Origin: Gammaproteobacteria bacterium
Lineage (GTDB): Bacteria > Pseudomonadota > Gammaproteobacteria > Pseudomonadales > Pseudohongiellaceae
Length of the DNA: 64,000 bases
Direction: 5' to 3'
Assembly: GCA_002731775.1 (NCBI GenBank)
Contig: PCCP01000104.1
Coordinates: 1-64,000 of the forward strand
Made by a program: the position numbers and the translations under genes. Positions 2,807 through 53,090 of this stretch are shown here, piece by piece; position 1 is the first letter of the stretch, and each line of letters begins with the position of its first letter. The notes under the pieces were generated by a model. It was not told the DNA's origin. It saw only the letters and a list, made by a program, of their open reading frames with translations, and did no database searches.

Positions 2807-3667
2807 TTATGCAATAGAGAACGCAGAGTTTACTCTAATTGCATCGACGGTGGCAGCCACATCGTGTGCACGAACTATATTCGCACCACCCAGAAGTGCA
2901 TGGGTGGTGGCGGCTATGGACCCGGCCAGGCGCTCCCCGACTGGCTTGTCGGTGATACCACCAATCATCGATTTTCGGGAAATGCCTACCAGTATCGGTA
3001 ATTCCAGTTCCTGCAGTCGAGGTAGGTTCTTGAGTAATTGATAATTATGTTGCAGGGATTTTCCGAATCCAAATCCTGGATCGATTACCAGATGACCCCT
3101 ACCGATGCCGCTGTCGAGACAAAGCTGAACTCTCTCCCTGAGGAAGGTGAATACTTCTTCGGTCACATCGTCATAAGAAACTGTTTTCTGCATCGAGCCT
3201 GGATCACCCTGCATGTGCATCAAACACACTGCCACGCCGCTGTCCTTGATTATCTTAATTGTCTGCGGGTTGGCAAGCGCCCGAATGTCATTAATAAATT
3301 CGGCGCCTGCCCTGATTGCCTCCAGCATCACTATCGGGGAACTGGTATCGACGGAGATGCAAACGTCGAGATTGGCGTGTATGGCCTCGATAACCGGAAT
3401 CACGCGACTCAATTCTTCTTGTGTAGAACCAGCCTCGGCGCCAGGCCGTGTGGACTCACCACCGACGTCGATAAAGAGTGCCCCCTCTGCAACTAAAGTG
3501 CCGGCGCGGCTAAGAGCCTTGGCGAGATCTACTTCGAATTTACTGCGGTCGTCTTTCTTAAGCTGAGCGCCGTCAGAAAAGGAATCCGGTGTAAGGTTTA
3601 TGACACCCATACAGGCAGGAGATGACAGATCTATCTGTCTATCCCCTGCTGTAATGATGTGTGTCAC
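2807..3667 (-). CDS. folP: Dihydropteroate synthase
   Basis: Condenses 6-hydroxymethyl-7,8-dihydropterin pyrophosphate with p-aminobenzoate in folate synthesis, and is the sulfonamide target. The 286-residue TIM barrel shows the two family signatures, MGVINLTPDSFSDG near residue 20 and GGESTRPGAEAG near residue 70. DPGFGFGK and the late GISRKSMIGG loop also contribute to substrate binding. The stop codon of ftsH lies 32 bp upstream, giving the conserved ftsH-folP-glmM order. Confidence 0.97.
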   Translation of the reverse strand: MTHIITAGDRQIDLSSPACMGVINLTPDSFSDGAQLKKDDRSKFEVDLAKALSRAGTLVAEGALFIDVGGESTRPGAEAGSTQEELSRVIPVIEAIHANLDVCISVDTSSPIVMLEAIRAGAEFINDIRALANPQTIKIIKDSGVAVCLMHMQGDPGSMQKTVSYDDVTEEVFTFLRERVQLCLDSGIGRGHLVIDPGFGFGKSLQHNYQLLKNLPRLQELELPILVGISRKSMIGGITDKPVGERLAGSIAATTHALLGGANIVRAHDVAATVDAIRVNSAFSIA

Positions 3668-3699
3668 AATTAAGGCTTGCGGTGGATCGAGTGCTGCGC

Positions 3700-5646
3700 C
3701 TAGTGTTCGCTGGCGGGTCCACCAATCTTACTGGATTTGTCGGTTTCGCCTTTGTTCACTTTGCTGGTGTCAGAATCCTTGTCGTCACTCTCGGTCTTGT
3801 TGTTGCTGTCAGACCAGTCTGCGGGAGGTCTTGGGGCTTTTCCCGCCATGATGTCATCGATCTGAAGCGCATCGATGGTTTCATATTCCATCAGAGCATC
3901 TTTCATCAGTTCCAGTTTTTCTTTGTTACTCTCGAGCAAGTCTTCTGCTTTCTTGTAGCAGGCGTCGATGATTCTTCGCACTTCTTTATCGATAGCGATG
4001 GCGGTATCGCTTGAGACTGTTTTCTGATGCATTGCCGCCGAGCGCCCAAGAAATATTTCACCATCATCTTCAGAATATAGTACAGGTCCGAGCTTGTCGG
4101 ACAAGCCCCACTTCGTAACCATATTCCTAGCCATCTCCGTTGCGCGCTGAATGTCATTTGAAGCGCCAGTTGTCACACCATCCTTGCCGAGTGTCATTTC
4201 TTCCGCGATCCGTCCTCCGTAGAGGCTGCAAATATTACTGATGATGTGCTGCCTGCTGATACTGTAACGATCTTCTTCGGGCAGAAACATGGTTACACCC
4301 AGAGCCCGGCCACGCGGAATTATACTGACCTTGTAAACCGGGTCATGATCCGGCATCAGGCGACCGACGATGGCATGTCCGGCTTCGTGATATGCGGTGT
4401 TAAGCTTTTCCTTCTCCGACATCACCATGGACTTTCGTTCGGCGCCCATCATGATCTTGTCTTTTGCTTTTTCGAATTCTTCCATGGTAACCAGACGTCG
4501 ACCTGCCCTCGCCGCAAACAACGCTGCCTCATTCACCAGGTTAGCCAGATCTGCTCCGGAAAACCCTGGAGAACCCCGGGCTATTACATTTGCCTTCACA
4601 TCGTCATCGATTGGCACTTTTCGCATATGCACTTTCAATATCTGTTCACGACCACGTATGTCAGGCAGACTTACTACCACCTGTCGGTCGAATCTACCCG
4701 GCCGTAATAGTGCCGGGTCTAACACATCAGGCCGGTTAGTCGCCGCCATTACAATGACACCGTCATTGGCCTCGAAGCCATCCATCTCCACCAGCAACTG
4801 GTTCAAGGTTTGTTCACGCTCATCGTGCCCACCGCCCAGACCGGCTCCCCGGTGACGACCTACTGCATCAATTTCGTCGATGAAAATGATACAAGGCGCT
4901 TGCTTCTTAGCCTGTTCAAACATGTCACGCACGCGAGAAGCACCGACCCCGACAAACATCTCAACAAAATCTGATCCGGAAATGGAGAAGAAAGGAACCT
5001 TGGCTTCGCCTGCTATGGCCTTGGCGAGTAAGGTTTTACCAGTTCCCGGCTGCCCCACCAATAAGATACCGCGAGGAACGCGACCTCCGAGGCGCTGAAA
5101 TTTGTCTGGCTCCCGCAGGAATTCGACCAGTTCCTCCACATCTGCCTTGGCCTCATCGACACCGGCAACATCGGCGAAAGTAATCTTAATCTGATCCTCG
5201 CCCAGTAATTTCGCCTTACTTTTACCGAAGGACATCGGTCCGCCTTTGCCCCCGACGCCTCCGCCCTGCATTTGCCGCATGAAAAAGAAGAACAGGGCAA
5301 TGATGATGAGTATAGGGAAGCTGGCAACCAGTAACTGGGTCCAGATACTTTGCTGCTCTGGCTCGTTGGCAACAATTTCAACCCCGTTATCGAACAGGTC
5401 ATTCATCAACTGATCGTCGCCAATCAATGGCATCACGGTGCGGAATTGGGTGTTATCAGAGCGCACGCCGGTGATATTGATGCCTGCCAGCTCCACCATT
5501 TCGACACGACCGGAGCGTACTTCCCGTACAAATTGGGAGTAATTGATGCTGTCCTCTACGGTTTCCTGGTTAATATTGTTGAAAACTGTCAACAATACAC
5601 CAGCGATGATCATCCAGAGAATCAGATTTTTTGCCATATCATTCAA
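3700..5646 (-). CDS. ftsH: ATP-dependent zinc metalloprotease FtsH
   Basis: Membrane-anchored hexameric AAA+ protease that degrades misfolded membrane proteins and regulatory substrates. The 648-residue product has a first membrane helix near residues 7-24, a periplasmic domain, and a second helix near 105-123. The AAA domain follows, with Walker A at 198-205, Walker B IFIDEID at 254-260 and a second-region-of-homology arginine segment. The zinc site HEAGH is at 420-424. Walker A reads GQPGTGKT where most homologues have GPPGTGKT. The tail is charged and serine-rich. The first ATG has an AAGG about six bases upstream. Confidence 0.98.
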
Positions 5647-6808: not shown

Positions 6809-6826
6809 ATTAGTGGACCGGTAACT

Positions 6827-7303
6827 TTAAATATGCTGAATCGTATCGATCGCGTATTCGATGTCGCCGGCGGGGGCCTTCAGTACGATCTCTTCGCCTT
6901 CTTCTTTTCCCATCATGGCCCTGGCGATAGGTGAGATCACCGAAATCTTGCCACTGGATACGTCGGCTTCGTCTTCGCCTACGATCTGGTATGTGACCGT
7001 AGCTTCGGTCTCGAGATTTATCAGGGTCACGGTAGTGCCGAATATTACCCGCCCCGTCGGCTCGATCTTACTGACATCAATCACCTGGGAATTAGATAGC
7101 TTGCTTTCGATCTCCTTTACCCTGCCCTCGCAAAAACTTTGCTGCTCGCGGGCCGCATGATATTCAGCATTCTCTTTTAAGTCGCCATGCGCCCTGGCCT
7201 CCGCGATCGCCGCCGTGATTATCGGACGGCTGACGGATTTCAATTCGTTAAGTTCCCGGCGCAGAGATGCCTCACCGCTAACCGTCATGGGAAATTTTTG
7301 CAT
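6827..7303 (-). CDS. greA: Transcription elongation factor GreA
   Basis: Binds the RNA polymerase secondary channel and stimulates cleavage of backtracked RNA. The 158-residue product has the coiled-coil arm with the acidic tip, seen as [16 protein letters not shown] at residues 41-56. The C-terminal FKBP-like domain contains GTTVTL and [15 protein letters not shown]. The gene follows carB after 58 bp, and the carB-greA pair is common in Pseudomonas-like genomes. Confidence 0.97.
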
Positions 7304-7361
7304 AACTCGTTAACCTCGAACAGATACTCGATGCTGATTCTGAATATCCGGGGGATTGAAT

Positions 7362-10300
7362 TTAGTGTAAAGCCGCGTGTAGCTGTTGAATTGTGTAGAC
7401 AGACATTTTATCGCCGAATTCCAGCGCTTCGCAAACTGCAAGCGCCCCGGCAATCGTCGTGGTACAGAACACATCATGCCGCAGGGCCGTGCGCCTTATC
7501 AAAGAAGAATCGGCGATCGCCTGTCTTCCGTCGGTGGTGTTGACGATGACCTGGATCTCGTCATTTTTTAGCATATCGACTATGTGGGGTCTACCCTGGG
7601 CGACTTTATTCACACCAGTAACTGGAAGATTGGCGTCTTCCAGCACTTTTGCAGTGCCGTGGGTCGCTACCAGGGCATAGCCAAATGCCAGTAGCTTGCG
7701 GGCAACTTCCACGACGTAAGGCTTGTCGTGATCTCTTACACTGATGAAGGCATTGCCGGATGTTTCGATGACTTCTCCCGCAGCCATCTGCGCCTTGGCA
7801 TAGGCCTCAGCGAAGGTTTTGCCTACACCCATAACCTCACCGGTGGATTTCATCTCCGGTCCCAGAATCGGATCCACACCCGGGAATTTGTTAAATGGAA
7901 ATACCGCCTCCTTGACTGCATAAGTCTCTGGCACTATCTCTGTAGTAAATTTCTGATCTTGCAGACTTACACCCGTCATGCACCGTGCCGCCACCTTCGC
8001 CAGCGATCGCCCAATACACTTGGAGACAAATGGCACGGTTCGTGAGGCCCGGGGATTTACCTCGATGATGTAGATTTCCCCATCCTGGTAAGCGAGCTGG
8101 GTGTTCATCAATCCAATCACACCCAACTCCAACGCCAGCCTCGAAACCTGGCCCCGAATTTCATCTTGCACAGCCTTTGGTAAATTGTAGGGAGGCAGGG
8201 AACAGGCCGAGTCTCCCGAGTGGATGCCAGCCTGCTCGATGTGTTGCATAATTGCACCGACTACCACCTGCTTGCCATCACTTACCAGATCAACGTCGAT
8301 CTCGATGGCGGAATTAAGGAAATAATCCAGCAATACCGGGCTATCCTTGGAGACCTTGACTGCATCGTGCATGTAGCGCTTTAACTCCACGTCGTTGTAA
8401 ACGATCTCCATCGCTCGACCACCAAGCACATAGGAGGGCCTGACCACCAGGGGGTAGGTAATTTCTTCTGCAGCCCTGATGCTTTCCTCCACACTCCGCA
8501 CGGTGCGGTTAGCTGGCTGCTTGAGATCGAGTTTTTGAATGAGCTTTTGAAAGCGCTCACGATCTTCCGCGCGATCTATAGCATCCGGTGAAGTTCCTAT
8601 GACTGGCACTCCCGCCTGTTCAAGACGCTTTACCAGGTTCAGTGGGGTCTGGCCTCCAAACTGCACGATCACGCCCTTGGGCTTTTCAAGTTCGGCGATC
8701 TCTATTACATCTTCGAAGGTGAGTGGCTCGAAGTACAATCGATCCGAGATATTGAAATCCGTGGATACAGTTTCCGGATTGCAGTTAACCATAATGGTTT
8801 CATAGCCATCTTCGCGCATGGCGAGGGCGGCATGAACGCAGCAGTAATCGAATTCAATGCCCTGACCAATGCGATTAGGACCCCCCCCTAACACAATGAT
8901 CTTGTCCCGGGTCGAAGGTGCAGCCTCGCATTCCTCCTCATAGGTGGAATACATATAGGCCGTAGCGGAAGCAAATTCGGCGGCGCAAGTGTCGACGCGT
9001 TTGTAGACCGGCCGTACACCAAGGCCGTGACGCACCCGTTGTACTTCGATTTCCTTGACACCGAGCAGTTGTGACAAGCGTTCATCGGAGAAGCCCTTGC
9101 GCTTGAGAGCAAACATCGCCGCCTTGTCCAGATCTGACAGGGATTTCCCTGCGAGACTCTCCTCCGTGCGTATCAAATCTTCTAGCTGCACCAGGAACCA
9201 GGGATCGATGCCGGACAATTGGTAAACAGTTTCAATCGGCCAGCCCTGCCTGAAGGCATCTCCCAGGTACCAGATCCGCTGCGCACCAGGTTCCGTGAGT
9301 TCCCTGGTGAGAATTTCCTTGGCATCACTGAGCCCGGTATCCAGAATTGAATTGAAGCCACAGACGCCAACCTCGAGTCCGCGCAGGGCTTTTTGCAGGG
9401 ATTCCTGAAAAGTCCTGCCTATAGCCATGACTTCTCCCACCGACTTCATCTGTGTGGTAATACGGTCATTGGCGTCAGGAAATTTTTCGAAGGTGAACCG
9501 GGGGATTTTTGTTACCACGTAATCGATGGTTGGCTCGAAGGAGGCTGGCGTGACTCCACCGGTAATCTCATTGCGTAATTCATCCAGGGTAAATCCAATA
9601 GCCAGTTTCGCGGCGACACGGGCGATTGGAAAACCGGTCGCCTTGGATGCCAGTGCCGAGGAACGGGATACCCGTGGATTCATCTCGATAATGACGAGCC
9701 TGCCATCTACAGGATTGATCGCAAACTGTACGTTGGAACCACCAGTCTCGACACCGATCTCCCTGAGCACAGCGATAGCTGCATTTCTCAGAATTTGGTA
9801 TTCCTTGTCCGTCAGTGTCTGTGCTGGCGCAACGGTAATGGAGTCTCCTGTATGTACACCCATGGCATCGAAATTCTCGATGGAGCAGACGATAATACAG
9901 TTATCATTCTTATCTCGAACCACTTCCAGTTCGAACTCTTTCCAGCCTATCAGAGACTCATCGATCAACAGTTCGTGGGTTGGTGATAGCTCAAGCCCGC
10001 GGGTACAGATTTCGTCAAATTCTTCCCGGTTGTAGGCGATGCCGCCACCGGTGCCACCCATGGTAAAAGATGGCCTGATAATGCAGGGAAATCCTACCTT
10101 TTTAAGCGCTTCCTGGGCCTGCTCCATGTCGTGTGCCATGCCGTGTACCGGTGTTGCCATGCCAATGGAGAGCATAGCCTGGTCAAATAGCTCACGGTCT
10201 TCTGCCTTGTCGATGGCTTCAACACTGGCGCCGATCAGTTCCACGCCATATTTCTGCAAGATGCCATGGCGATTTAGATCCAACGCACAGTTGAGTGCCG

Positions 10301-43962: not shown

Positions 43963-45807
43963 CTAGCCCCGCGCTGCCAGTCCCCTGCTCATGCGCTTGC
44001 GTTCGTTCTCGGTGAGATAGCGCTTGCGTAAACGAATGTTATCGGGTGTGACTTCAACCAGTTCATCATCGGCAATAAATTCCATTGCCTGCTCCAGAGA
44101 ATGTACTACCGGCGGGGACAATACAATGTGTTCATCCGTACCCGATGCCCGCACGTTGGTAAGTTGCTTCGCCTTCGTTGGATTCACAATCAAATCATTA
44201 TCACGGCTGTGAAGACCAACGATCATACCCTCATAGACCTCGGTGTTGGATCCAACGAAGAGCCTGCCTCGCTCCTGCAGATTGAACAGACCAAAGCCTA
44301 GGGTCTTGCCCTGAACCATGGAAACCAGCACGCCACGACCCCGACTCGCCAATTCAGTATCGATGTACTCACCGTAATGATCGAAGACATGGGTCATCAA
44401 GCCGGAACCGGATGTCATCGAAAGAAACTGGGAGCGAAACCCAATCAGCCCTCTGGTCGGCACCAGAAACTCCAGGCGCACCCTGCCCTTGCCATCGTCG
44501 CTCAGGTCTTGCATCCTGGCCCGACGCTGCCCCAATTCTTCAATGACAGAACCCTGATACTGTTGGTTGCAGTCGATAAGCAGTGATTCATAGGGCTCCT
44601 GTTTGACCCCATCGACCTCATGAATAATTACTTCGGGCCGGGACACCGCCAACTCGAAGCCCTCACGCCGCATCGATTCGATCAACACTGACAGGTGTAA
44701 CTCGCCGCGGCCGGATACCTTATATTTATCCGGCGTGTCACCAGGCTCTACACGTAAGGCAACATTGTGGAGCAACTCGCGCTCCAATCTCTCCTTAATA
44801 TTTCGAGTGGTGACATACTTGCCTTCCAGTCCCGCGAAGGGGGAATCGTTAACCTGAAAAGTCATACTGATGGTGGGCTCGTCTACCTGCAGTGGAGCCA
44901 TGGCCTCTACCTTGTCCGGATCGCAGATGGTATCGGAAATATTCAATTTATCGATGCCAGTGATACAGACAATTTCACCGGCGCGAGCCTCTTCTACATC
45001 GATGCGCTCCAGACCGAGATGACTCTTGACCTGCAGTATTTTGCCTTTGCGCTGCTTGCCTTCACTATCGACGATCACCACCTGCTGATTCCTGCTAGCC
45101 TTGCCTCGGGAAATACGACCGATGCCAATGACACCAACATAACTGTTGTGATCCAGAGCACTGATCTGCATCTGTAATGGGGCATCGACAACAACTACCG
45201 GAGCCGGTACATTTTCCACGATAGAAGCAAACAGGGGCATCATATCTTGCGCCAGGCTTTCATGCTCCAGCCCGGCGACTCCATTCAGGGCCGAGGCATA
45301 TACGATGGGAAAATCCAGTTGCTCATCGCTTGCGCCCAATTTATCGAACAGATCGAATACTTCATCCACCACCCAGTCGGGGCGGGCACCATCGCGGTCA
45401 ATCTTGTTGATCACCACGATGGGATTCAACCCCTGGGCGAAGGCTTTCTGGGTCACGAAGCGAGTCTGGGGCATCGGCCCATCGGCTGCATCCACTAAAA
45501 GCAATACGCTATCGACCATGGACAGAACCCGTTCGACCTCGCCGCCGAAGTCGGCGTGACCGGGGGTATCGACGATATTGATATGGTAGCCGTTCCAGGT
45601 AATGGCGGTATTCTTGGCAAGAATGGTTATGCCCCGCTCCCGTTCCTGGTCATTGGAATCCAGCATTCGTTCCAGCTGCTTACCACGGCTCTTCACGGTG
45701 CCAGATTGCTGCAACATTTTGTCAACAAGCGTGGTTTTGCCATGATCAACGTGTGCGATGATGGCTATGTTTCGAATTTTCTCAATCACAGGCTTGCAAG
45801 CGTCCAC
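43963..45807 (-). CDS. typA: Translational GTPase TypA/BipA
   Basis: Ribosome-binding GTPase used in stress and low-temperature ribosome assembly. The 614-residue protein has G1 [10 protein letters not shown]3 [10 protein letters not shown] and G4 [15 protein letters not shown]-like domains follow, and the BipA-specific C-terminal domain ([13 protein letters not shown], then [13 protein letters not shown] and [11 protein letters not shown]) is present. The start is a GTG with AAGGGG eight bases upstream. Confidence 0.97.
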
Positions 45808-45972: not shown

Positions 45973-47511
45973 TTACTGTGGGTTGGCCATAGCCGCTGAT
46001 ATATCCAGCACCGCGACGTTGGCGAATCCTTCATCGAGCAAATTTGCAGCATGTAATCTACTCATCATGCCCTTGTCACAGAACAAGAGAAAACTCTTGC
46101 TCTTGTCCAGCTCGGTAAAGCTCGTGCGCAACTGGTAGAACGGAATACTCAGCATTGCTGCCGGTGCCGTCGACTGATGCAGAATCAGCGGCCTGGCTTC
46201 CTGTTCGGTGGGATGGCGAATATCTATAATGGTGTGCTCCGGGCCTACCTCATTGACAATTTTTACATCTACCGCTTCCTGGCCAAAATCTTTAGCCAAT
46301 TCGGTAATCAGTTGATGTTTGGATTTTTTGACCGCTGCATCCAGTACTGAAAAATCAAACCGGGTTTCTTCGTATTCGACACGCTCAAGCTTTGCCCTGG
46401 TGCTCGGGTTATTCGAAATAACAGCACAGTATTCGGGTATATTTCTGGAAAACTCTTCACTGCCAATATCCCTGGCAATATCGATGATCTCCTGCTTGTT
46501 GACTGTGCACAGGGGCCGCAATACCAGCAATTCTGCAACTCTGTCAATTACTGCGAGGTTAGCCAGGGTCTGACTGGACACCTGCGCCACACTCTCTCCC
46601 GTCACTATCGCATTGATCTGCATTTGTTCAGCGATTTTACCGGCTACCCGCAGCATCATACGTTTCAGTACAACTCCCATCAGGGAGTTGTCGACGCGAT
46701 TAAGAATCTCCTCAATTACAGCCTCGAAGGGCACAGAAATAAACTTGACCCGGTGGCTACTGTGATATTTCATCCACAGAAATAGTGCGACTTCCTTCAC
46801 CGCAAGCTCATGGGCTTTACCACCAAGGTTGAAAAAACAATAGTGGGTCTGGAGACCGCGTTTTATACAAAGATAACTGGACACAGAGGAATCGAAGCCA
46901 CCGGAGATCAGAGACAGCACCGAATCCTGGCAACCCAGTGGATAGCCTCCTAAACCTCCGTGTTGCTCCCTGACAATGAAGAGCTGGTCCTGGCGAATTT
47001 CCAGGACCACGGTAACATCTGGATCTACCAGCTTGACGCCCGCCGCCTCGGTTTGCTGGTTCAAGCCACCCCCCACATACCTCTCGACGTCCACCGACCT
47101 GAATCCATGGCGACCGCTGCGTTTGCAGCGCACCGCGAAGGTCCTGCCTGCGATTTTCGCCGTGTAAGTGCGCAGACAAAGCTCCAGCATGCCGTCCATA
47201 TCCGGAAGCGGATACTTGTCTACTTCCTGCACCAGGGCAATACCCGGAATCCGGGTCAGCTGCTCGACCACGTTAGCGCGCAGATCTATTTCATCCTGTG
47301 TTGCCGTCTCCGGCTCAGACCCTTGGCTGGCCCTTGCTGCAATGGCCCCAGTTTTAACCTCGATGATATCCCACTCGCCAGTCACCTCTACATCGCTGTC
47401 TAACGGCCTGATCACGGACCTGATGTTTTTGCGCAACTGGCGTATGAAGCGTTTTCGTACGGGTCGACTCTTGATGGAAATTTCAGGAAATATCTTAATC
47501 AGGAACAGCAT
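45973..47511 (-). CDS. thiI: tRNA 4-thiouridine synthase ThiI (with rhodanese domain)
   Basis: Makes 4-thiouridine at tRNA position 8 and can supply sulfur for thiazole. The N-terminal ferredoxin-like and THUMP domains are followed by the PP-loop ISGGFDSS, and a C-terminal rhodanese domain with the persulfide cysteine in LLFCDKGMMSRL. The start chosen is the ATG giving MLFLIKIFPEISIKS, which is the family N-terminus (512 residues); a TTG four codons upstream is less likely. Divergent from glnII. Confidence 0.96.
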   Translation of the reverse strand: MLFLIKIFPEISIKSRPVRKRFIRQLRKNIRSVIRPLDSDVEVTGEWDIIEVKTGAIAARASQGSEPETATQDEIDLRANVVEQLTRIPGIALVQEVDKYPLPDMDGMLELCLRTYTAKIAGRTFAVRCKRSGRHGFRSVDVERYVGGGLNQQTEAAGVKLVDPDVTVVLEIRQDQLFIVREQHGGLGGYPLGCQDSVLSLISGGFDSSVSSYLCIKRGLQTHYCFFNLGGKAHELAVKEVALFLWMKYHSSHRVKFISVPFEAVIEEILNRVDNSLMGVVLKRMMLRVAGKIAEQMQINAIVTGESVAQVSSQTLANLAVIDRVAELLVLRPLCTVNKQEIIDIARDIGSEEFSRNIPEYCAVISNNPSTRAKLERVEYEETRFDFSVLDAAVKKSKHQLITELAKDFGQEAVDVKIVNEVGPEHTIIDIRHPTEQEARPLILHQSTAPAAMLSIPFYQLRTSFTELDKSKSFLLFCDKGMMSRLHAANLLDEGFANVAVLDISAAMANPQ

Positions 47512-47614
47512 GTCTGAACTCAATTGAGGTGGGAGTGAAATGGGCTCGAGTGCCAGTCAGAAAAATCGCCTTAGGCGGGGATTTTGCTGATCTGCTGGGT
47601 ATTTCACTGGAAAA

Positions 47615-47629
47615 GCACTTTGATGGTGC
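47615..47629 (+). promoter_or_regulatory. NtrC binding site 1 upstream of the glutamine synthetase gene
   Basis: GCAC-N5-TGGTGC, a full match to the enterobacterial NtrC consensus. It is centred at about 47622, roughly 125 bp before the predicted sigma-54 start site. Confidence 0.75.
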
Positions 47630-47644
47630 GGTAATATTGCCTGC

Positions 47645-47659
47645 GCTCGCAATTAGTGC
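47645..47659 (+). promoter_or_regulatory. NtrC binding site 2 upstream of the glutamine synthetase gene
   Basis: GCTC-N7-GTGC, one mismatch from the palindromic GCAC-N7-GTGC core. Its centre is 30 bp (about three helical turns) from site 1, the spacing used for cooperative NtrC binding at enterobacterial glnA. Confidence 0.6.
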
Positions 47660-47720
47660 GCGATTAATTTCTGTAGCGGCAAGCCTACCGTAAAATCAGG
47701 CTTTGCAGCCACCCTTTTAA

Positions 47721-47736
47721 TGGCATATATTTTGCT
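47721..47736 (+). promoter_or_regulatory. Sigma-54 promoter of the glutamine synthetase gene
   Basis: TGGCAT-N5-TTGCT with exact GG-N10-GC spacing, close to the sigma-54 consensus TGGCAC-N5-TTGCA. Transcription would start near 47746, leaving a leader of about 185 nt before the ATG. Two NtrC-type sites lie upstream at the usual enhancer distance. Confidence 0.75.
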
Positions 47737-47931
47737 CCTTCCGAAGTGCACAAGACAAGCCAGGAAGAATTGGGCGAATCGCGTCTTCGCCATGTGAATC
47801 GTGAGCGGAACCGGAGATAGGCTCTTTCGTGAGCAGCGTCTGCTGTTAGGGCATTTTGGCGAGACCGGAAGTTAGAGAATCGATTAAACATCATCGCAAT
47901 GTAAATTAGTGATTTAGGAGAACCACAGAAA

Positions 47932-48945
47932 ATGAAATCTAAACTGGAATATATCTGGCTGGACGGATACAAGCCAACACAAAGTCTGCGCAGCAAGACG
48001 CAAGTAAGAACCGACTTCGGTGGCACCGTGGAAGAATGCCCGATGTGGAACTTTGACGGCAGCTCGACCGAGCAAGCCTCGGGTGGCGACTCCGACTGTC
48101 TGTTGAAGCCAGTGGCCATATACCCCGACCCAGATCGTGCCAGTGCCTACCTGGTAATGTGCGAGGTAATGAACGCCGATGGCTCCCCACATGAGTCCAA
48201 CGGTCGTGCCACCATCGATGATGATGATGAAGATTTCTGGTTTGGTTTCGAGCAGGAATATTTTCTTTGGGATCTCAAGACTAATTTGCCACCAGGTTTT
48301 CCTCCAGGCGGATATCCTGGCCCCCAGGGTCCTTATTATTGTTCCGTCGGCGCCGGTAATGCCTACGGCAGAGACTGCGTCGAAGACCATCTGGACCTGT
48401 GTCTCGAGGCCGGGGTCAATATCGAGGGAATCAACGCGGAAGTTGCGGCAGGGCAGTGGGAATTTCAGGTGTTTGCCAAGGGCGCCAAACAAGCAGGTGA
48501 TGAAGTCTGGATAGCCCGCTACCTGTTAGAACGCACGGCCGAGCGCTATGGCTTCAGCATTAACTACGAACCCAAGCCACTGGGCAGACACCTGGACTGG
48601 AATGGTTCCGGCATGCACGCAAACTTCTCCAATGGCGCCATGCGTGATCTAGGTGACGAATCTGTTTTCACCAGAATCTGTGAACACTTCGGTAAAAACA
48701 TCGACCGCCACATCCACGTGTATGGCGCCGACAATGACCAGCGCCTCACCGGTGAACACGAAACCCAGTCGATCGATATGTTCAGCTACGCCGTCTCCGA
48801 TCGTGGCGCCTCCATCCGCATCCCCGTTACTACCGTGCAAGATGGCTGGAAAGGCCGCCTGGAAGATCGTCGCACCGCATCAAACGCCGACCCTTACAAG
48901 GTCGCGGCCGTGATCATAAAGAGCTCCAAGGAAGCGCTGGCTTAA
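47932..48945 (+). CDS. glnII: Glutamine synthetase, class II (eukaryotic type)
   Basis: ATP-dependent ligation of ammonia to glutamate. The 337-residue length and motifs identify the short class II enzyme, not the 470-residue class I GlnA: LEYIWLDGY, the WNFDGSSTEQA loop (40-49), the metal-binding GFEQEYFLW (105-113), NGSGMHANFS (224-233) and LEDRRTASNADPY (310-322). Class II enzymes are decamers and lack the adenylylation tyrosine loop, so GlnE-type control should not apply. A TAGGAGA site precedes the ATG. A sigma-54 promoter and NtrC sites lie upstream, and ntrBC lies downstream. Confidence 0.96.
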   Translation: MKSKLEYIWLDGYKPTQSLRSKTQVRTDFGGTVEECPMWNFDGSSTEQASGGDSDCLLKPVAIYPDPDRASAYLVMCEVMNADGSPHESNGRATIDDDDEDFWFGFEQEYFLWDLKTNLPPGFPPGGYPGPQGPYYCSVGAGNAYGRDCVEDHLDLCLEAGVNIEGINAEVAAGQWEFQVFAKGAKQAGDEVWIARYLLERTAERYGFSINYEPKPLGRHLDWNGSGMHANFSNGAMRDLGDESVFTRICEHFGKNIDRHIHVYGADNDQRLTGEHETQSIDMFSYAVSDRGASIRIPVTTVQDGWKGRLEDRRTASNADPYKVAAVIIKSSKEALA

Positions 48946-48984: not shown

Positions 48985-49013
48985 AACCCGGGTAGCAACT
49001 CCCCGGGTTTTTT
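48985..49013 (+). terminator. Rho-independent terminator after glnII
   Basis: AACCCGGG and CCCGGGTT form an 8-bp perfect GC-rich stem with a 9-base loop, followed by six T. It lies 40 bp after the stop codon and separates glutamine synthetase from ntrBC. Confidence 0.85.
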
Positions 49014-49143: not shown

Positions 49144-49160
49144 TGCACTATATTGGTGCA
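49144..49160 (+). promoter_or_regulatory. NtrC binding site upstream of ntrBC
   Basis: TGCACTATATTGGTGCA, a full NtrC palindrome (GCAC-N5-TGGTGC) extended by one more matched pair on each side. It lies about 210 bp before the ntrB start and about 110 bp before a -24/-12 element. Confidence 0.75.
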
Positions 49161-49371: not shown

Positions 49372-50460
49372 GTGACCCTGGATACTGTACATAAACGTCT
49401 GCTGGACAATCTCAACATCTCGGTGTTGCTGCTGGATTACGAGCTAAGTCTACTTTACATCAACCCGGCGGCAGAGAATTTGCTGGAAATAAGCGACCGC
49501 AAAGCCAGGCAGCTGTCTATTGCCGATGTCTTTATCGAGGCGGCCGAAGATATTGCTGAGATGCAGGCAGCGCTTGCAAGCCATAGCAGTTTTACCCGGC
49601 GCAAGGCAGAATTTCTATTAAGCCATGGCAAGGTCATTACCGTGGACTACAGCATCAACACTTTCGAGGAAAATGGACAGATCCAGGCACTACTGGAGTT
49701 GAATTCACTGGAACACGTCAATCGTATCAGCCGTGAACAAAACCTGAGTTCGGCGCATGCCACCGCCGTGGAACTGGTGCGTGGTCTGGCCCACGAAATC
49801 AAAAATCCGCTTGGGGGCATTCGCGGGGCTGCCCAGCTGCTGTCCCAGGAATTGCCCACAGCTGAACTGAGAGAGTATACCAACGTGATCATTGAGGAGG
49901 CCGATCGACTACACAAACTGGTTGACCGCCTGGTCGACTCCAGGCATCCGCCGGAGTTAAAAGATATCAATATTCACGAAGTGCTGGAGCGTGTCAGAAA
50001 CCTCGTCGAAGCAGAGATCGTCGGTAAAAGCATCCGGCTGATTACCGATTACGACCCCAGTATTCCACCGCTACACGCTGACGCCGAGCAGTTGATCCAG
50101 GCCATGTTGAACATTGTCCGCAATGCGATGCAATCCCTGACCAGTCCGGTGGTGAACCATGATCTGGGGAGAATCTATTTGCGCACCAGAATCATTCGCA
50201 ATGCCACTATTGGTTCCAGTTTTCATCGCCTCGCCGCCAGTATAAAAATTATCGACAATGGGCCGGGTGTAGACTCAGAAATCATCGACACTATCTTTTA
50301 TCCAATGATAAGCGGGCGTGCAGACGGTACCGGTTTAGGCCTTTCCATCGCCCATGGCATCATTAGTCAGCATAAGGGCATGATCGAATGTATATGCAGG
50401 CCTGGTGTGACTTGTTTCAAGGTGGTGCTCCCGGTTAGTGATTCAAACCTCGGCCATTAG
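49372..50460 (+). CDS. glnL: Nitrogen regulation sensor kinase NtrB
   Basis: Soluble histidine kinase/phosphatase of the NtrBC system, controlled by PII. The 362-residue protein has an N-terminal PAS domain (LLDNLNISVLLLDYELSLLYINPAAENLL) and the phospho-acceptor His141 in GLAHEIKNPLGGIRGAAQLL. The ATPase motifs are NIVRNAMQSL, IIDNGPGV and GTGLGLSIAHGI. No membrane segment. The start is GTG. Followed by ntrC after 53 bp. Confidence 0.96.
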   Translation: MTLDTVHKRLLDNLNISVLLLDYELSLLYINPAAENLLEISDRKARQLSIADVFIEAAEDIAEMQAALASHSSFTRRKAEFLLSHGKVITVDYSINTFEENGQIQALLELNSLEHVNRISREQNLSSAHATAVELVRGLAHEIKNPLGGIRGAAQLLSQELPTAELREYTNVIIEEADRLHKLVDRLVDSRHPPELKDINIHEVLERVRNLVEAEIVGKSIRLITDYDPSIPPLHADAEQLIQAMLNIVRNAMQSLTSPVVNHDLGRIYLRTRIIRNATIGSSFHRLAASIKIIDNGPGVDSEIIDTIFYPMISGRADGTGLGLSIAHGIISQHKGMIECICRPGVTCFKVVLPVSDSNLGH

Positions 50461-50513: not shown

Positions 50514-51923
50514 ATGAACGCACAAGATACAGTCTGGATACTGGATGACGATAAAGCCATTCGTTGGGTGCTTGAGAAGTCTTTGAACAAGGCCGGCCTT
50601 AGTACGCTGACTTTTCAAAATGGTGACGAGCTGTTACATCGACTCGCACAGGAAACACCGGATGCAATCATCAGCGATATTCGAATGCCTGGCATTAGCG
50701 GTCTCGATCTGCTCTCGACTATTCAGGACACACACCCGCAACTGCCCGTGATCATCATGACCGCCCATTCCGACCTAGATAGCGCCGTCTCTTCGTACAG
50801 CCGTGGCGCCTTCGAATACTTACCCAAACCCTTCGATATCGAAGAGGCAGTCGCCATGACCCAACGCGCACTGGCTCATGCCCGTGAACAGGGTGTCGAA
50901 TCCGGCAGCAACAAGGAGGTCGTGCCCAGCCAGGAAATAATCGGCGAAGCGCCGGCGATGCAAGAGGTATTTCGCGCCATCGGCCGCCTGTCCCAATCCA
51001 ACATCTCGGTACTGATCAATGGTGAATCCGGCACCGGTAAGGAGCTAGTTGCCCTTGCCCTGCATCAACACAGCCCACGTCAGGATATGCCCTTCATACC
51101 CCTGAACGTCGCCGCTATTCCCAAAGAGCTGATCGAATCAGAACTGTTCGGACACGAGAAGGGTGCATTCACCGGCGCCTCCCATCAACGTATTGGCAGA
51201 TTCGAACAGGCTAATGGTGGCACCCTGTTTCTGGACGAGATTGGCGATATGCCCGCGGACACCCAGACCCGATTACTGCGCGTACTTTCCGATGGAGAGT
51301 TCTATAGAGTAGGGGGTCACACCTCCCTCAAGGTAGACGTACGCATTATCGCCGCCACCCACCAGAACCTAGAGCAGTTGGTGGACGCACACCGATTCCG
51401 TGAAGACCTGTTTCACCGTCTCAATGTCATCCGCATTCATATCCCGCGCCTGAGTGATCGGCGAGAAGATATTCCATTGCTGATCAGTCATTTCCTCAAC
51501 CTCGCCGCAAAAGAATTAGACGTGGAACCTAAGACGCTCCGCCCAGAAACCGAGCAATATCTGACTGGGTTGAGCTGGCCCGGTAATGTGCGCCAGCTGG
51601 AAAATTTTTGTCGCTGGGTCACGGTGATGGCATCGAGCCGTGAAGTGCATCTGGCCGACCTGCCACCGGAGTTTTCGGCGCAAGAAGCCAGCAGCGGCAG
51701 CGGCAATTGGACGGTAGGCCTGCAGGAATGGGCGGACCAGCAGCTAAGCCTGGGCAATACCGGCATTCTTGATCAGGCAACACCGATGTTCGAACGGACC
51801 ATGATCGATATCGCTCTCAAGCACACGGCTGGCCGACGCCGCGACGCGGCTGCCCTGCTAGGCTGGGGTCGCAATACCTTGACGCGCAAGATCAAGGAGT
51901 TGGGCACATTAGAGCAGGATTGA
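50514..51923 (+). CDS. glnG: Nitrogen regulation response regulator NtrC
   Basis: Sigma-54 activator for nitrogen-limitation genes. The 469-residue protein has a receiver domain with DDD at 11-13, phospho-acceptor Asp55 in AIISDIRMPG and Lys105 in LPKPFD. The AAA+ domain has Walker A GESGTGKE (170-177), the sigma-54-contacting GAFTGA (218-223) and Walker B TLFLDEIGDMP. The C-terminal Fis-type helix-turn-helix (RRRDAAALLGWGRNTLTRKIKEL) closes the protein. The NtrC-type sites found upstream of glnII and ntrB are its likely targets. Confidence 0.97.
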   Translation: MNAQDTVWILDDDKAIRWVLEKSLNKAGLSTLTFQNGDELLHRLAQETPDAIISDIRMPGISGLDLLSTIQDTHPQLPVIIMTAHSDLDSAVSSYSRGAFEYLPKPFDIEEAVAMTQRALAHAREQGVESGSNKEVVPSQEIIGEAPAMQEVFRAIGRLSQSNISVLINGESGTGKELVALALHQHSPRQDMPFIPLNVAAIPKELIESELFGHEKGAFTGASHQRIGRFEQANGGTLFLDEIGDMPADTQTRLLRVLSDGEFYRVGGHTSLKVDVRIIAATHQNLEQLVDAHRFREDLFHRLNVIRIHIPRLSDRREDIPLLISHFLNLAAKELDVEPKTLRPETEQYLTGLSWPGNVRQLENFCRWVTVMASSREVHLADLPPEFSAQEASSGSGNWTVGLQEWADQQLSLGNTGILDQATPMFERTMIDIALKHTAGRRRDAAALLGWGRNTLTRKIKELGTLEQD

Positions 51924-52055: not shown

Positions 52056-52523
52056 TTGATCAACATTGTGCTCTTCGAGCCAGAAATTCCCCCCAATACC
52101 GGAAATATCATTCGATTAGCCGCCAATACCGGCTCGCCTCTACACCTGATCAAGCCATTTGGCTTCGAGTTGGATGATAAGCGCATGCGTCGGGCAGGGC
52201 TGGACTATCACGAATATGCCGGTATTTCGGTTTATGAGGGCTTCGCCGAATTCATTGAAGCGCATGCTAATAAGCGCCTATTCGGTATCAGCAAGAAGGG
52301 CGTACGCCGGTACCACGAGGCGATATTCGAGGACGACGACTTCTTGATTTTTGGTTCCGAGACCCGCGGATTACCTGACTCGCTAAAACAACAGCTGGGA
52401 AATGATCAGATTCTGAGAATCCCGATGCAGGCGCACAGTCGCAGCCTTAATTTATCCAACGCCGCGGCCGTGGTGGTTTACGAAGCCTGGCGTCAGCTAG
52501 GCTTCGTAACCAGTAACCAATAA
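52056..52523 (+). CDS. trmL: tRNA (cytidine/uridine-2'-O-)-methyltransferase TrmL
   Basis: SPOUT-family enzyme that 2'-O-methylates the wobble base of tRNA-Leu isoacceptors. The 155-residue product starts with TTG, giving [26 protein letters not shown], which aligns with the family N-terminus. [11 protein letters not shown] and [23 protein letters not shown] form the SAM-binding knot. Its stop directly abuts the convergent secB stop. Confidence 0.95.
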
Positions 52524-53090
52524 TTATTGGGTGGTTGCAGACGCCGCTTCATCCGCTGCGGCGTCAGCGCCGTTTTCGCCGGTTGCCGCCTGCTCCGCCT
52601 GGGCTTGTTTTTGTTGGGCATATAGGGCATCGAAATTGATCGGGGCCAGCATCAATGCAGGAAAACTGCCCTTGATGACCAGGGAATCGATGGCTTCCCT
52701 GGCATAGGGAAACAGTATATTGGGACAGACCGTGGACAGCACCTGCTCCATTTGGGCCTCATCGAAATCCTTGCAAGAGAATATACCGGCCTGGTGTACC
52801 TCAACCAGAAATGCCGATTGATCATCCAGCTTGGCTTCGGCGGTAAGCACCAGTACCACTTCATAGATGTCGTCCTGCACCTTGGAGCTGCGAGTCTTGA
52901 TGTCGAAATGGATCTTCGGCTCCCAGTTGCCCTGAAAAACCACGGGGCTGCGTGGGGACTCGAATGAGGAATCCTTTAGATAGATGCGCTGCAGGGCAAA
53001 CTGCGCGCCTGGCGCCTGCTCGGCTGCGTCGGGCGAGGTGGCTATCTCACTGGTTTCTTCGCTTTCGTTGTTTTCTTCGTTATCTGCCAT
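52524..53090 (-). CDS. secB: Protein-export chaperone SecB
   Basis: Tetrameric cytosolic chaperone that delivers preproteins to SecA. The 188-residue product has FALQRIYLKDSSFESP, the PKIHFDIKTRS strand, the VEVHQAGIFSCKDF segment and LFPYAREAIDSLVIKGSFPALMLAPINFDALY. Acidic and Ala/Gln-rich extensions at both ends make it longer than E. coli SecB (155). Confidence 0.96.
   Translation of the reverse strand: MADNEENNESEETSEIATSPDAAEQAPGAQFALQRIYLKDSSFESPRSPVVFQGNWEPKIHFDIKTRSSKVQDDIYEVVLVLTAEAKLDDQSAFLVEVHQAGIFSCKDFDEAQMEQVLSTVCPNILFPYAREAIDSLVIKGSFPALMLAPINFDALYAQQKQAQAEQAATGENGADAAADEAASATTQ

Follow-up and report, generated by a model that had tools for sequence, protein, structure and literature searches.

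The enteric nitrogen cascade runs from GlnD through PII, NtrB and NtrC to sigma-54, and it is the source of the mechanism that we propose below. In E. coli, an NtrC site also lies before ntrB, where glnLp is the autoregulated promoter of ntrBC. In the Pseudomonas glnA slot, thiI presumably stands beside typA. The glnALG genes of E. coli are divergent from typA, and an NtrC box, TGCACCAnnnTGGTGCA, is given for this system in the portion of the source that we used (PMC8743547).

Class II glutamine synthetase (GSII) is best described in rhizobia. According to the available parts of two accounts, phosphorylated NtrC activates the GSII gene glnII of S. meliloti and R. leguminosarum, control of GSII is mainly transcriptional, and GSII exists there as an additional enzyme alongside GSI and GlnE (PMC10746234; PMC5127829). 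Because NtrC control of a GSII is established in rhizobia, this mode of regulation is not novel in itself. The Global Ocean Sampling survey, in the sections accessible to us, found type II glutamine synthetase to be surprisingly common in marine bacteria for a reason that it called unclear, listed a signal transduction histidine kinase among the GSII neighbours, and counted 19 cases of GSI beside GSII, the function of such pairs being called open (PMC1821046). Excerpts of another study place gamma-proteobacteria in the GSIIB clade, which is the reported source of plant glutamine synthetase by transfer (PMC2978018).

Here we analyze in silico a locus in which a GSII gene is followed by ntrB and ntrC. 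In the window (the whole stretch of 64,000 nucleotides that was analyzed), the gene order is typA-thiI-(promoter)-GSII-ntrB-ntrC-trmL-secB (Table 1), which we take to be the Pseudomonas order with GSII in place of glnA.

Table 1. Positions of genes and predicted elements at the GSII locus, and of the associated kinase genes at other loci
Feature	Position	Strand	Basis or remark
typA (bipA), flank of glnA slot	43963..45807	-	NCBIfam TIGR01394, 922 bits, over cut-off
thiI, divergent neighbor upstream of promoter	45973..47523	-	NCBIfam TIGR00342, 341 bits, over cut-off
NtrC-type site 1, GCACTTTGATGGTGC	47615..47629	+	Centre about -125; predicted from motif
NtrC-type site 2, GCTCGCAATTAGTGC	47645..47659	+	Centre about -95; predicted from motif
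Block between enhancer and promoter, GTAAAATCAGGCTTTGCAGC	47690..47709	+	Partly conserved; alignment of 29 upstream regions
Sigma-54 -24/-12 element, TGGCATATATTTTGCT (TGGCAT-N5-TTGCT)	47721..47736	+	Sole strict match in window
Predicted 5' leader	47747..47931	+	About 185 nt; GSII ATG at 47932
GCACAAGACAAGCC	47748..47761	+	Within partly conserved start of predicted leader
Class II glutamine synthetase (GSII)	47932..48945	+	337 aa; Pfam and PDB comparison
Terminator-like hairpin, AACCCGGG/CCCGGGTT and T run, after GSII	48985..49013	+	Sequence
Perfect 17-bp NtrC palindrome before ntrB, TGCACTATATTGGTGCA	49144..49160	+	Absent from the preliminary description
ntrB (glnL)	49372..50460	+	NF008293, 352.6 bits, over cut-off
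ntrC (glnG)	50514..51923	+	TIGR01818, 737.8 bits, over cut-off
trmL, downstream flank	52056..52523	+	TIGR00185, 204 bits, over cut-off
secB, downstream flank	52524..53090	-	TIGR00809, 177.5 bits, over cut-off
Ser/Thr kinase (and PP2C in some), linked loci	L157:5741-6751 and 6812-7576; L155:1937-2893 and 2932-3708		
Ser/Thr kinase of the window's genome	G000:C71:4306-5277 (locus L197:4267-5247)		Contig other than that of GSII

The enzyme encoded at the locus

The preliminary description had assigned the gene downstream of the promoter to class II, and this assignment held. Both Pfam domains, Gln-synt_N and Gln-synt_C, scored over their cut-offs (49.7 and 68.5 bits), and the length of the product agrees with the roughly 340 aa of this class. 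The best solved relatives were the glutamine synthetase chains 3fky (E 1.5e-95) and 4bax, which we take to be class II enzymes, whereas PDB chains of at least 440 aa, the size of GSI, matched at E 1.6e-14 or weaker. Since the protein reached 386.5 bits against a cut-off of 500 for the NCBIfam GlnII equivalog NF041605, it is not filed under that equivalog. The genome contains three PF00120 genes in total. We considered the other two as GSI or glutamylputrescine synthetase, and neither reached a specific model; they scored about 200 bits where GSI requires 429, and 177 and 210 bits where glutamylputrescine synthetase requires 650. Because they fall short of the GSI cut-off, GSII is the sole recognizable ammonia-fixing glutamine synthetase of the genome, whose assembly is 90% complete. 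The hairpin that follows the gene has a folding energy of -15.4 kcal/mol (z -2.63); it was not returned by a consensus terminator scan, the loop limit of which is 8, while the perfect stem leaves 9.

A predicted glnA-type promoter in front of GSII

The sigma-54 element and the two NtrC-type sites reported in the preliminary description are present, the latter by motif match. The -24/-12 spacing of TGGCATATATTTTGCT is correct for a sigma-54 promoter, and the start inferred from the -12 element falls at about 47747 (47746 in the preliminary description). Relative to this start, the centres of the predicted NtrC sites lie at -125 and -95, 30 bp from each other; site 1 carries all eight of the specified bases of GCAC-N7-GTGC and site 2 seven of them.

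That these motifs are chance matches or functionless remnants is scarcely credible, although each of them taken alone is weak. TGGCAY-N5-TTGCW occurs once in the window against 0.23 expected, and NtrC-like sites with at most one mismatch number 34 against 31 expected, which is the chance level. As single NtrC-like sites occur at chance frequency, it is their arrangement that carries weight. We defined a joint layout as a strict sigma-54 match with two NtrC sites of at least 7/8 placed 28-33 bp apart. A search of both strands of the window found it once, and none of 60 Markov windows (one strand each) contained it. Among GSII upstream regions, 45 of 105 had the joint layout and 72 had the strict sigma-54 pattern, compared with none and one, respectively, of 2776 control stretches taken from these loci; the 105 include paired records of one genome, and five regions shorter than 300 bp were excluded.

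The elements are also conserved in close relatives, contrary to one of the outcomes by which the preliminary description would have been refuted. All 28 loci of the window's genus with enough upstream DNA had the strict sigma-54 element, and both NtrC sites were in place at 7/8 or better in 19 of the 28 (in 22 at 6/8 or better). Counted singly, site 1 was found at 7/8 or better between -128 and -122 in 22 loci and site 2 between -98 and -92 in 21. In L027 and L028 the NtrC pair lies about 91-93 bp further upstream and in L032 55 bp further, with 29-31 bp between the centres retained; an in-place site has 5/8 or less in L018, L024, and L029, and one site has 6/8 in L005, L013, and L021. At the motif level, GSII thus has paired NtrC sites that are about 30 bp apart, less than 200 bp upstream of the inferred transcript start, and conserved in relatives.

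Two further blocks were seen in the alignments. The one between enhancer and promoter (47690-47709) is GTAAATTCGGGC.TTGCAGC-like and is perhaps a weak NtrC site or a site for a bending protein. Just after the predicted start (47748-47761), CAAGGCAAG is present in 11 of 17 genus leaders, the version in the window being CAAGACAAG; across these 17 leaders, the block matched no fold and no recognized motif. The consensus RNA fold of the same leaders had five pairs, none of them with changes on both sides, and the leader fold was no better than that of shuffled sequences (z 0.67). A riboswitch or structured leader was rejected as well, as an Rfam scan of the region gave no family at gathering score, and what appeared at the lax threshold was a match of chance level (E 0.54) that fell within the GSII gene.

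The palindrome before ntrB is part of a wider pattern. An NtrC site of 8/8 precedes ntrB in 49 of 60 distinct GSII-ntrB gaps, all 49 being among the 55 gaps of at least 100 bp, as well as in 19 of 25 GSI-ntrB gaps, and in all three gaps of the sister genus described below. By analogy with E. coli glnLp, this site should autoregulate ntrBC. In one subclade (L033, L072, L096, L102, L107, and L110), only 68-70 bp separate GSII from ntrB and no NtrC site remains in front of ntrB, which suggests a merged operon.

The glnA slot in relatives

Apart from the window, the genus provided 29 loci. In 25 of them, GSII stands between thiI or typA and ntrB; in the remaining four, a contig end interrupts the slot. 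A sister genus of this family is represented by three genomes (G079, G135, and G181), which have the order typA-thiI-GSI-ntrB-ntrC together with a sigma-54 element; they have GSI and GlnE and lack GSII. Their NtrC sites are at -126/-96 (7/8 and 8/8), -127/-97 (8/8 and 8/8), and -126/-96 (6/8 and 8/8), respectively, and the layout of sister-genus glnA agrees with that of GSII in the window to 1-2 bp. At 18 of 19 glnA loci of other families, typA, thiI, or ntrB lies no more than 1.5 kb away; 17 of the 19 have an NtrC-type site of at least 7/8 upstream, and nine have a strict sigma-54 element, two more differing in the last base. Between the two genera, the similarity of the non-motif linker from enhancer to promoter hardly exceeds that of shuffled sequences (z 2.2), and to the eye their leaders seem unrelated. 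Because of this weak linker likeness and the unlike leaders, the case for homologous promoter DNA is one of position and spacing.

In the NtrC tree, the 31 loci with GSII in the slot form a clade (SH-aLRT 99) beside the three sister-genus loci with GSI in the slot (100), a topology which indicates that NtrC came by descent in place while the enzyme changed. In the GSII tree, the window's group, which consists largely of aquatic bacteria, is one clade (support 99), whose members by record name include Pseudohongiella and OM182. Both trees were quick ones made without bootstraps, and the NtrC tree came with long-branch warnings. Mapped on the NtrC tree, the GSII label changes five times, with at least three changes forced by starred branches and gains and losses undistinguished. 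In Halieaceae, too, GSI and GSII are seen at a single locus, and GSII genes without ntrB downstream also bear sigma-54-like and NtrC-like elements in other layouts. Four loci titled Pirellulales, planctomycete, Rhodospirillaceae, and Myxococcota (L090, L097, L111, and L113) carry a GSII 78-80% identical to that of the window, by either transfer or wrong binning.

Since GSII lies in the glnA slot and the GSI layout of the same family is alike to 1-2 bp, the enzyme appears to have changed while the frame stayed. We therefore favor, with a probability of roughly 0.8, a replacement in place, in which GSII took over from glnA (GSI) and the regulatory frame was kept, as gene order and promoter motifs suggest. 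The preliminary description had proposed a glnA-type promoter before a synthetase of another class, for which we find support in silico, with ntrB and ntrC following. It had further proposed that the resident NtrBC circuit captured this gene. The NtrC/sigma-54-type promoter of that proposal stands; capture is less well supported, because GSII occupies the glnA slot and GSI-bearing relatives share the layout.

Absence of GSI and GlnE from GSII genomes

We compared 58 genomes, 37 of the window's genus (its own included) and 21 of other families. Within the genus, GSII was found in 36 of the 37 genomes, GlnD and PII in 35 each, and GSI over cut-off in one. The window's own genome has one GlnD and two PII genes and thus, with NtrB and NtrC, the signalling components expected for a nitrogen promoter; in its 90% complete assembly there was no GSI over cut-off and no GlnE match, so that the GSI adenylylation cycle (glnA-glnE) is not found. 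A GlnE-sized match was obtained in none of the 37 genus genomes, 32 giving no match and five a weak or partial one. The other families showed the converse: of their 21 genomes, 19 have GSI over cut-off, 20 have GlnE, and none gave a match at the level of GSII, the best one (2.3e-12 at 33% identity) being a GSI.

Of the five weak or partial matches in the genus, those in G018, G021, G022, and G033 were rejected as GlnE, being partial domain matches (23.6-34.9 bits) rather than GlnE-sized genes. Each of these four weak GlnE-type (nucleotidyltransferase-like) matches shares its ORF with a fatty acid desaturase domain, behind which it stands (L189:970-2991, L190:1146-3203, L191:2205-4391, and L192:2126-4483). 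The fifth, in G009, is a true piece of GlnE that lies at the edge of a contig. In G002 (locus L194), a true GSI is paired with a PII gene on a 7.6-kb contig, which, judged by this setting, is probably a contaminant.

An order-wide sample of 145 evenly sampled genomes (requested completeness at least 90%) gave the same picture. GSII was present in 11, eight of which have no GSI, and all eight lack GlnE; the three with both synthetases (G098, G160, and G172) have kept GlnE, and their GSII lies within a few kb of GSI. Among the 134 genomes without GSII, GSI and GlnE were found in 129 each. GSI alone was missing from G066, G091, and G112 (each of at least 390 contigs), GlnE alone from G068, G085, and G140, and both from G040 and G110. 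G040 has GSIII in place of GSI or GSII (L167:4678-6852) and no GlnE match, and upstream of this gene there are a sigma-54-like match and an NtrC-type site of 7/8. Metagenome assemblies account for many of the genomes analyzed, and such genome counts are not independent events. The states form a readable series from GSI alone through a GSI+GSII pair to GSII alone with GlnE gone.

A Ser/Thr kinase that accompanies GSII

With GlnE and GSI absent, a fast shut-off of the enzyme must come from elsewhere. GSII genes that lie away from ntrB often have a Ser/Thr kinase beside them and sometimes a PP2C phosphatase (12 and two, respectively, of 80 named loci). In the order sample, the kinase was found in all 11 GSII genomes and in none of the 134 others. 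The query had been picked as a GSII neighbor at one locus, and a class-wide sample of 370 genomes, in which the window's genome and at least four others are shared with the order sample, served as an independent repeat. There, all 10 genomes with a GSII at least 76% identical to that of the window had the kinase, compared with none of the other 360, which include 11 with GSIIs of 46-57% identity. These counts apply a threshold of E 1e-60, the weakest match being 1.8e-85, and kinases below it are outside the count. Because genomes with both GSI and GSII also carry the kinase, it tracks GSII and not the loss of GlnE.

The protein is a Hanks-type kinase by domain and catalytic motifs. The copy in the window's genome scored 133.3 bits with Pfam Pkinase, those of L155 and L157 were over the cut-off as well, HRDIKPEN and DWG are kept, and the proteins of 30 rows are about 317-353 aa long; among solved structures, PknB kinases come closest. 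Control of the kinase by NtrC and sigma-54 was considered and rejected, as 31 kinase upstream regions (row L219 misread) gave no sigma-54-like match and NtrC-like sites of 7/8 occurred, scattered, in seven of the 31.

We also looked at the GSII side. Ser or Thr residues fixed in at least 95% of the GSII clade and rare in 11 divergent GSIIs are T23, T94, S138, S226, T301, and S317, and Y197 is likewise fixed in the clade and rare in the divergent proteins; this set comes from 129 clade rows, duplicates included, the kinase status of which is known for part only. The six Ser/Thr positions may be regarded as candidate kinase targets, as a lead only. Among possible sources of a fast shut-off of GSII, the kinase would be the leading candidate.

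Proposed mechanism and alternatives

According to the replacement that we favor, GSII would have replaced glnA in the slot typA-thiI-(glnA)-ntrB-ntrC in an ancestor of the window's genus. At low nitrogen, GlnD would uridylylate PII and NtrB would phosphorylate NtrC; phosphorylated NtrC bound at -125 and -95 would loop to the sigma-54 polymerase at 47721-47736 and raise GSII, and the site before ntrB would adjust ntrBC. GlnE, which acts on GSI, would have become useless after the swap and been lost, which would explain its observed absence, while GlnD, PII, NtrB, and NtrC are all still encoded. GSII would be controlled by transcription, by feedback, and possibly by the Ser/Thr kinase that is associated with it, through a putative phosphorylation.

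A true capture would mean that GSII brought its own sigma-54/NtrC promoter along, or evolved one beside ntrBC, and that the likeness to glnA is convergent. The sigma-54-like and NtrC-like elements of GSIIs elsewhere and the weak linker likeness to sister-genus glnA (z 2.2) speak for such a course, but we consider it unlikely, since the other GSII layouts differ (-204/-174 in L156, -184/-153 in L158, and -109/-77 in L163), whereas the glnA of the sister genus, which occupies this very slot, agrees to within 1-2 bp. It is also conceivable that GSII is ancestral in the family and that the sister genus regained GSI and GlnE, as the nearest outgroup rows in the NtrC tree (L051, L071, and L156; 84) have GSII or GSI+GSII. 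We regard this as quite improbable, because, of the 134 genomes of the order that lack GSII, 129 have GSI and 129 have GlnE, the GSI of the sister genus branches deeply by itself and is not nested in another family, the GSII proteins of the outgroup rows fall outside the group formed by those of the window's genus, and the sister genus gave no kinase match.

For the kinase, the alternative is that it merely travels along with GSII on one piece of DNA and acts on a different substrate. This would fit the distance of 92-329 bp between the two genes in eight of the nine class-sample genomes besides the window's, and we take it as a serious possibility, clearly short of even odds. It is harder to reconcile with the order sample, in which eight of the 11 GSII genomes have the kinase on a contig separate from GSII, and in which five families (f1, f6, f24, f39, and f45) contain both kinds of genome, some members having both genes and others neither. 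The distance matrices of kinase and GSII are also correlated (r 0.57 over 30 pairs, with none of 2000 permutations as high), although shared descent alone can give such a correlation. More broadly, we tentatively suggest, as a proposal just below even odds, that GSII and the Ser/Thr kinase, with PP2C in some lineages, form a transferable module in which GSII phosphorylation replaces adenylylation by GlnE and which repeatedly displaced GSI and GlnE beside glnA with the NtrBC promoter of the host kept.

Comparison with known systems

The proposed swap gives a concrete route to GSII in marine bacteria, by way of GSI, GSI and GSII side by side, and GSII alone. It would offer a clear example in which one class of an essential enzyme gives way to another while the regulatory frame remains in place, and the kinase is a directly testable candidate for a new control of ammonia assimilation. 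In a literature search in which subscription journals were mostly outside the scope, we did not find an in-slot swap of GSI for GSII, the accompanying loss of GlnE, or a GSII kinase. The portions of the ocean survey at hand do not mention replacement at the glnA locus, the promoter, the loss of GlnE, or the link to a Ser/Thr kinase (PMC1821046), and the GSIIB study, in the text available, does not treat bacterial neighborhood or regulation and contains the word 'kinase' 0 times (PMC2978018).

The GSII-associated kinase resembles the Hanks-type PknB kinases in its kinase domain and in the HRDIKPEN and DWG motifs, but it does not reach the PASTA-kinase model (232.9 of 450 bits for the L157 copy). 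We know of no rhizobial glnII in a glnA-ntrBC slot. Control by NtrC, predicted in the window, is common to rhizobial glnII and this locus, whereas the GSI and GlnE beside which the rhizobial enzyme works are not found here. With the glnA-ntrBC loci of enterobacteria and Pseudomonas, the window shares the slot beside typA, the sigma-54 promoter, a pair of upstream NtrC sites separated by about three helix turns, and ntrB-ntrC downstream, and with E. coli also the NtrC site in front of ntrB. The predicted NtrC sites of the window, at -125 and -95, compare with sites at about -140 and -108 at E. coli glnA, and the window differs from these glnA loci in having GSII instead of GSI and no GlnE match.
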